Shown here piece after piece: positions 33,313-35,278 of a DNA stretch of 64,000 bases. Under the pieces are notes generated by a model. It saw only the letters and a list, made by a program, of their open reading frames with translations. It was not told the DNA's origin and did not search any database. Position 1 is the first letter of the stretch. Every line of letters begins with the position of its first letter. The translations under genes and the position numbers were made by a program. This stretch comes from Cognatundibacterium squillarum (GTDB lineage: Bacteria > Pseudomonadota > Gammaproteobacteria > Burkholderiales > Burkholderiaceae_D), in NCBI RefSeq assembly GCF_014652435.1, contig NZ_BMYU01000003.1, forward strand, positions 124,001 to 188,000, given 5' to 3'.

Positions 33313-33924
33313 TCAGACCGGCTGTCGACGGCGCAAACGGAACACCGCTAAACTGCCGCGCCAGTTCGGTAATATGCGGACGGGGCGGCCTTCATGCAAG
33401 GCCACGCATTCCAGCACTTCCAGACCGACTTCACGCGCCAGATCCGCGAAATCATAAATCGTGGCGCAGCGTACGTTCGGCGTATCGTACCACTGATACG
33501 GCAGAGACTTGGACACCGGCATCCGGCCGCGCAGTAAAGCGGTACGATGCGGCCAGTAACCGAAATTCGGAAACGAAACGATCGCTTCCTGACCAACACG
33601 GGCGATTTCACGCAGCGTGTCTTCCACATGTTTCATCATTTGCAGCGATGACAGGCATAGCACGGTATCAAAGCTGTTATCGGTGAACATGCCAAGCCCC
33701 TGATCAATATCCTGCTGGATCACACTGACCTGACGCTGCGCACAAGCCAGTACTTTGTCATCCGCAATTTCGATACCGTAACCGTGGCATTGTTTCGCTG
33801 TTTGCAGATAGTCGAGCATTTCACCGTCACCACAACCCACGTCAAGGATTTGCGCGCCCGGTTTAATCCAGTCAGCGATAAATGCCAGATCGGGGCGTAA
33901 CTGATTCAGTTCAGAAATGGTCAT
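33313..33924 (-). CDS. metW: Methionine biosynthesis protein MetW
   Basis: A 203-residue SAM-dependent methyltransferase-fold protein. The SAM loop is [15 protein letters not shown], followed by [19 protein letters not shown] and the MetW-typical [35 protein letters not shown]. It overlaps metX by 4 bp (ATGA). In proteobacteria MetW works with MetX in homoserine acylation; its exact reaction is not settled. Confidence 0.95.
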
Positions 33925-35072: not shown

Positions 35073-35116
35073 ATACTCTTCCACCGGGTGTAAACCCGTC
35101 AAAAACACATTTGAAG

Positions 35117-35161
35117 GAAGGCTAAAAGGGGGGCTGAATGGAGGGGAAAGGAGACATTCAG
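35117..35161 (-). promoter_or_regulatory. Candidate expression-platform hairpin of the metX leader
   Basis: On the minus strand CTGAATG (35155-35161) can pair with CATTCAG (35134-35140), followed by CCCCCCTTTTAGCC. Its 5' arm overlaps the pseudoknot strand GCGAGCCTG of the aptamer, so the two structures compete. Confidence 0.5.
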
Positions 35162-35235
35162 GCTCGCTTTAGCCGTATTTATTTTCCGGAGTGACCGGAA
35201 AGCGCCCGCAAGCTGAAACTCAAATCGGCGCTTAT
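35155..35235 (-). ncRNA. SAM-II-like riboswitch upstream of metX
   Basis: P1 is AAGCGCC (35233-35227) pairing with GGCGCTT (35206-35200). The P1 loop begins GATTTGAG. The 3' segment AAATAAATACGGCTAAAGCG carries the ATAAAT...GCTAAA signature of SAM-II. The pseudoknot is CAGCTTGC (35215-35208) with GCGAGCCTG (35167-35159, one bulge). An extra hairpin TCCGG/CCGGA (35185-35199) sits between P1 and the 3' segment. The promoter start predicted about 10 nt upstream fits the RNA 5' end. It likely represses metX when SAM is high. Confidence 0.68.
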
Positions 35236-35249
35236 TCACTAAGGGTATA

Positions 35250-35278
35250 AGGATAAACAAGTCAGCGGATGCCGTCAA
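35250..35278 (-). promoter_or_regulatory. Promoter of metX-metW
   Basis: TTGACG (35273-35278) and TATCCT (35250-35255) are 17 bp apart on the minus strand. The start would be near 35243, just before the riboswitch P1. The -35 lies in the loop of the ptsI terminator hairpin. Confidence 0.55.

Follow-up and report, generated by a model that had tools for sequence, protein, structure and literature searches.

We describe an RNA element on the minus strand upstream of metX in a 64,000-nucleotide (nt) window of Cognatundibacterium squillarum (Burkholderiales; contig NZ_BMYU01000003.1, positions 124,001 to 188,000; positions below are those of the window). It is very likely a genuine SAM-II riboswitch whose peripheral hairpin varies and whose expression platform has changed; judged from comparative sequence analysis, the probability that it belongs to SAM-II and senses S-adenosylmethionine (SAM) is about 0.9. 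We base this on homology to insert-free metX leaders scoring nearly at the Rfam cut-off, on a clearer copy before metH in the same genome, on the presence of the pocket nucleotides listed for the structure 2QWY, and on methionine genes downstream in 20 further loci checked. On the same four grounds we uphold the class proposed earlier by a sequence-only reading, which had pointed out P1, the ATAAAT...GCTAAA segment and an inserted hairpin; all three are present on the minus strand, and of 80 metX loci, 56 have the element upstream. New here are two hairpin insertion points, the link to a previously published metXZ element and the change of platform.

The order from 5' to 3' is a promoter-like sequence, GCGCC, GAUUUGAGUUUCAGCUUGC, G, GGCGC, the hairpin, AAUAAAUACG, GCUAAA and GCGAGC. 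As in SAM-II (RF00521, 2QWY), P1, GAUUU, UUGC, AUAAA and GCUAAA follow each other in the same order, the pocket nucleotides are there and a methionine gene lies downstream. The window element differs from SAM-II in its P1 (GCGCC/GGCGC), in a P1-L3 linker of 21 nt that includes a 19-nt hairpin, in a score below cut-off and, like the other members of its clade, in having no intrinsic terminator by our script rule.

The cut-off of the Rfam model SAM_alpha (RF00521) is 36 bits. Several results of the model searches weigh against the assignment: no Rfam family matched anywhere in the window at gathering thresholds; in a permissive search SAM_alpha reached 15 bits (E 0.45) over the first half of the element only, which taken alone would be chance level; and SAM_alpha did not match the inserted leaders L007, L025, L056, L057 and L083 at E<=5. 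For the window itself this covariance check, suggested by the sequence-only reading, yielded little; the relatives decide the matter. All five insert-free metX leaders (L047, L069, L073, L079, L085) match SAM_alpha over its full length with 29.7-33.5 bits, still under 36, and the second copy in the same genome (L001), which has no insert, stands before metH and carries an intrinsic terminator, scores 34.9 bits. The low score of the window element is probably explained by the insert together with a model trained on alpha-proteobacteria. At E<=0.01, SAM_alpha matched 184 of the 399 Burkholderiales genomes scanned and 0 of 14 control genomes, and 69 of the 399 exceed the cut-off; the top score is 52.5 bits within the order versus 88.2 elsewhere in the phylum. 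A core pattern search was positive in 210 of the 399 genomes, and the reversed control pattern gave 3 matches.

Other matches were set aside. Five more SAM_alpha matches in the window's own genome (L002-L006) score 12.6-16.4 bits, and the permissive search also gives matches in all 14 control genomes. The S-adenosylhomocysteine (SAH) riboswitch model matches the plus strand at 12.4 bits (E 6.6); we take this for chance, its arms being those of the inserted hairpin. Neither the SAM-II long loops model (RF01726) nor the SAM-V model matched the window in the permissive search at E<=10.

The pocket description in PMC3764141 gives U10-U12, U20, U21, G22, C23 and G42-A47 as the pocket-forming nucleotides of 2QWY, and all of these are found in the window element, the numbering being placed by motif. 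The leaders were split by metX identity into the window's clade (the window and L007-L028 without L021) and the others (L029-L086); the core blocks are intact in 22/22 clade leaders with readable upstream DNA. The pseudoknot pair was mentioned in the sequence-only reading with no strands named; the pairing expected from the SAM-II structure, UUGC/GCUAA, is present, but it was also required by the searches that supplied the relatives. A new riboswitch class with the same scaffold and another ligand, e.g. SAH, would agree with the sections of Leyn 2014 (PMC4239095) in which no ligand is named for the metXZ element. Since no change is seen in U11 and U21, the sulfonium-facing uridines, or in the rest of the listed pocket nucleotides, and the downstream genes belong to methionine synthesis, we regard such a class as extremely improbable.

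The helices give uneven support to the SAM-II assignment. P1 is identical in 131 of 133 elements, so no covariation can come from P1 within this set, which counts against us; the near-invariance is partly imposed, as the script needed at least four of five pairs and two pattern searches needed GGGC. In high-scoring loci of another class, presumably the alpha-proteobacteria, P1 is CGUGGU/GCCACG in place of GCGCC/GGCGC, with two pairs replaced on both sides (30 loci, one without a parse and 4/29 read one base out of register). Relative to these high-scoring SAM-II members, P1 is thus kept by paired replacements. Among the 133 elements, standard pairs in distal P2 occur at C19-G48 in 118, G18-C49 in 98, C16-G50 in 119 and U15-A51 in 114. 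Covariation at 15-51 is not significant, being reached in 750 of 10000 shuffles for 50 distinct forms, and this is a further point against; an apparent covariation of distal P2 (z 4.5 over 122 rows) was gone once distinct forms were counted. A longer complementarity in the window, GCUUGC (35213-35208) with GCGAGC (35167-35162), is not preferred as the functional pseudoknot, because it consumes the UUGC of the pocket and because fewer elements retain its outer pairs (C19-52 in 81/133 and G18-53 in 89/133, versus 118 for C19-48 and 98 for G18-49).

The inserted hairpin, here called J, is a real and lineage-variable decoration. In the window it folds with -9.4 kcal/mol, which was equalled by 0/500 dinucleotide and 1/500 mononucleotide shuffles. 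In 52 of 57 leaders (window included), an insert separates P1 from the AAAU of L3 by more than 8 nt; 44 of the inserts are distinct. All 44 are predicted to form hairpins, with a mean z of -4.0 versus mononucleotide shuffles; 36 have p<=0.05 versus dinucleotide shuffles, and the remaining 8 (p>0.05) are a point against. We aligned 12 of the 22 inserts of the clade (L014 duplicates L009, and nine longer inserts stayed outside the alignment). In this alignment five of the seven pairs vary on both sides and 88.1% of cells pair; the covariation score was reached by 0/500 shuffles and was at least halved when the partner was slid by one column. The hairpin that the sequence-only reading had noticed is therefore beyond chance.

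Its suggestion of a variant or new subtype holds in part. J reads as a peripheral insertion and not as a change of the core, because the P1-L3 linker varies in length among relatives (5 to 41 nt; 5-6 nt in those free of inserts) and the core blocks are unchanged; the variable hairpin stands, and a new subtype is weakly supported. By the geometry of an H-type pseudoknot, an insertion at the outer end of P1 or the far end of P2 could project outward, clear of the pocket. The second insertion point is in L1, between GAUUUGA and CAGC, and is used in 23 of the 57 leaders (12 distinct); most of these inserts fold weakly (-1.1 to -3.3 kcal/mol), with one at -10.4. Elements with inserts are likewise seen upstream of metH and metZ, and in further families of the order.

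In some elements with a long L1, the loop contains UCAAA or GUCAA, which could pair with UUUGA, the site of the pocket uridines U10-U12 (e.g. GAUUUGAUUGAACAAGUCAAACCCAGC). This loop was seen in 10 of 44 distinct long-L1 elements, one of the 44 being a parsing artefact; the carriers are L215, L216, L217, L218 and L231, all before metH, as well as L151, L153, L162, L163 and L170. Such a pairing would block the SAM triplex, and in metH leaders the loop may serve as an internal competitor to the aptamer.

Terminators were called by one script rule, a hairpin abutting a T run. By this rule, 35/35 leaders outside the window's clade have an intrinsic terminator downstream of the aptamer, versus 0/22 within it, window included, where a looser or unusual type may escape the rule. 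In the other group, 30 of the 35 leaders hold complements of the pocket strands, UUAGCC (16) or CAAGC/GCAAGU (28), as a raw count. In 16 of the 35, UUAGCC reaches into the 5' arm of the terminator or lies directly against it, as would be expected of an antiterminator arrangement. An 8-base-pair (bp) complement of GGCUAAAG is found in 22/22 clade leaders versus 1/35 of the others and 82/2850 shuffled tails.

The free and locked states were computed as nested folds, the pseudoknot being imitated by forbidding pairs. The predicted ligand-free pairing of the switch helix is 0.89-0.98 in 21 of the 22 clade leaders. With the aptamer locked, GCCUUCC of the window pairs with the ribosome-binding site, and predicted free GGAAG goes from 0.23 to 0.03. 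Predicted access to the Shine-Dalgarno sequence drops by at least 0.05 on locking in 15/22 clade leaders, and the reversal is never more than 0.02. Two predictions weigh against this scheme: the switch helix is not formed in L028 (pairing 0.02), and free-state access exceeds 0.5 in only 3/22 clade leaders, which bears on the translational step.

A SAM-II family riboswitch would control metX-metW as follows. SAM would bind an H-type pseudoknot made of P1 and of UUGC paired with GCUAA, in which U10-U12 form a third strand, and would lock GCUAAA; without SAM, GGCUAAAG would pair instead with CUUUUAGCC about 40 nt downstream. Outside the window's clade, locking of the pocket strand would let the terminator form and turn the gene off. 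Within the clade, the released segment continues into CUUCC, complementary to the Shine-Dalgarno sequence, and SAM may thereby lower translation. The extra hairpin sits at the outer end of P1 and could stay clear of the pocket. The analysis itself shows sequence, homology, conservation, covariation of the hairpin and, by the script rule, the presence or absence of a terminator; SAM binding and the direction and mode of control are what we infer here, and control in which SAM turns the gene off is likely. A translational mode in the window's clade is suggested by the folds at somewhat less than even odds; action of SAM-II on translation at a distance is the subject of work on Sinorhizobium metA, as far as the available text of PMC9373788 goes.

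The missing terminator may be read in two other ways. The SAM-bound state could expose the C-rich, G-poor stretch 35154-35116 so that Rho terminates before metX, and the pyrimidine-rich loop and C-rich run are indeed kept in the clade leaders (by eye), where the script rule found no terminator in 22 of 22; the pyrimidine-rich loop of the window is unpaired in both predicted states, however, and we consider this unlikely and translation more likely than Rho. Alternatively, the metX element of the clade could be a decayed aptamer, with SAM sensed by the metH copy only. The low Rfam score and the lack of a script-rule terminator in the clade would agree with decay, but core blocks intact throughout the clade, a covarying insert and a switch helix of 8 bp in 22/22 leaders, longer than in 34 of the 35 others, make it very improbable.

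Our tentative picture, which we put slightly short of an even chance, is a rewired metX switch in the Undibacterium clade: the terminator was lost, the alternative partner of the pocket strand was kept and lengthened, control moved from transcriptional to translational (or Rho-dependent), and a structured insertion arose at the outer end of P1. If so, a minimal pseudoknot riboswitch could grow at two sites with no harm to the pocket, P1's outer end and the far end of P2, and the platform would have been converted within one family. The leaders offer a natural series for studying platform change under one aptamer. The window's genome itself holds two SAM-II copies, the metH copy with a canonical terminator and the metX copy with none found. 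The terminator of L001 is common to the metH-type leaders L139 and L140, and L138 has the same stem, missed by the script rule.

Occurrence in a beta-proteobacterium, mentioned by the sequence-only reading, is not new: SAM-II has been in print for this group since 2007 (PMC2258182) and a metX/metZ leader element since 2014 (PMC4239095). In the sections available, Leyn 2014 describes a novel metXZ element in 35 beta-proteobacterial genomes, with six conserved regions before metX or metZ, a pseudoknot and control by terminator-antiterminator switching, and finds SAM_alpha only in two alpha orders (PMC4239095). Our leaders resemble it in the genes (metXW or metZ), the beta-proteobacterial hosts, the two-pairing pseudoknot and the terminator downstream. 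Going by genes, taxa and pseudoknot logic, the window leader is very likely that metXZ element, not recognised as SAM-II in those sections. Among open-licence papers we found none that links the metXZ element to SAM-II or describes these inserts.

SAM-II long loops (RF01726, PMC2864571) would, judged by name alone, share a SAM-II core with enlarged loops; the part of Weinberg et al. 2010 concerned (PMC2864571) lists it for Bacteroidetes and marine samples, unlike the window. SAM-V has a pocket nearly identical to that of SAM-II and is translational, according to the text available of PMC6061858. RF02424 (Bp2_287), which the accessible part of PMC3521395 traces to its candidate table, is filed as a Burkholderia small RNA (sRNA) on the strand opposite to SAM-II. 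Its model matches in 12 of 100 genomes, none over cut-off, and in 8 of 13 among the matches listed it lies on the opposite strand of SAM-II cores; of the remaining five, the match in G027 is on a different contig from the SAM_alpha match of that genome, and L178 and L181 have no SAM-II core by pattern search. What this family describes seems to be the strand antisense to SAM-II leaders of Burkholderiales.

The ligand-less element of 2014, and probably also the opposite-strand Rfam sRNA, are in this way joined to one known class. SAM-II is common in Burkholderiales before metX, metH and metZ, but the hairpin insertions make the current model overlook part of these riboswitches; the main use of the results lies in annotation and in studying how expression platforms evolve.

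The metX protein search gave 80 loci, of which 78 are readable (L021 and L072 are cut off just upstream), and 22 of these have no element before metX (L043, L048-L055, L059, L065-L068, L071, L074, L077, L078, L080, L082, L084, L086). Searching about 900 nt upstream in these 22 found no copy with both P1 blocks, two mismatches being allowed per P1 block and GGCTAAA being exact. Of the 22, 19 bear the names Massilia, Duganella, Pseudoduganella or Rugamonas, and the element was apparently lost in that group. The 20 further loci, hand-chosen from two pattern searches mainly for inserted forms, all lie before metX (9), metH (8) or metZ (3), which fits both SAM sensing and the metXZ element.

Table 1. 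Features of the metX leader and its surroundings in the window.
Feature	Position	Strand	Remark
SAM-II-like element	35231-35164	minus	before metX (ATG 35072)
P1 5' strand GCGCC	35227..35231	minus	pairs with 35202-35206
L1 and 5' strand of P2, GAUUUGAGUUUCAGCUUGC	35208..35226	minus	G8-U12, U20-C23 (2QWY numbering, motif-placed)
GAUUU block	35226-35222	minus	
UUGC block	35211-35208	minus	
P1 3' strand GGCGC	35202..35206	minus	
Inserted hairpin J, UUUCCGG-UCACU-CCGGAAA	35183..35201	minus	between P1 and L3
L3 AAUAAAUACG and pocket strand GCUAAA	35168..35183	minus	GCUAAA at 35173-35168 (G42-A47)
GCGA, proposed 3' strand of distal P2	35164..35167	minus	C19-G48, G18-C49, C16-G50, U15-A51
Switch segment CUUUUAGCC	35120..35128	minus	complementary to GGCUAAAG at 35174-35167
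Hairpin CUGAAUG/CAUUCAG, pyrimidine-rich loop	35134..35161	minus	arms 35161-35155 and 35140-35134; inside switch helix
Hairpin CGGG/CCCG	35085..35098	minus	just upstream of ribosome-binding site
Shine-Dalgarno-like GGAAG	35078..35082	minus	complementary to CUUCC 35120-35116
metX, homoserine O-succinyltransferase type, NF047916	33921..35072	minus	likely start ATG 35072
metW	33313..33924	minus	overlaps metX end
Promoter-like TTGACG-17-TATCCT	35250..35278	minus	35278-35273 and 35255-35250

The metX protein matches NF047916 (MetX_succinyl) with 689 bits (cut-off 560). A promoter-like match of at least 9/12 within 60 nt upstream of P1 is found in 53 of the 57 leaders versus 72 of 1620 random positions; its distance to P1 is 18 nt in the window and 9-10 nt in 50 of the 53 leaders bearing it. 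The stem of the hairpin before the Shine-Dalgarno sequence is kept in relatives with other letters (CGGG/CCCG, CGAGA/UCUCG; by eye).
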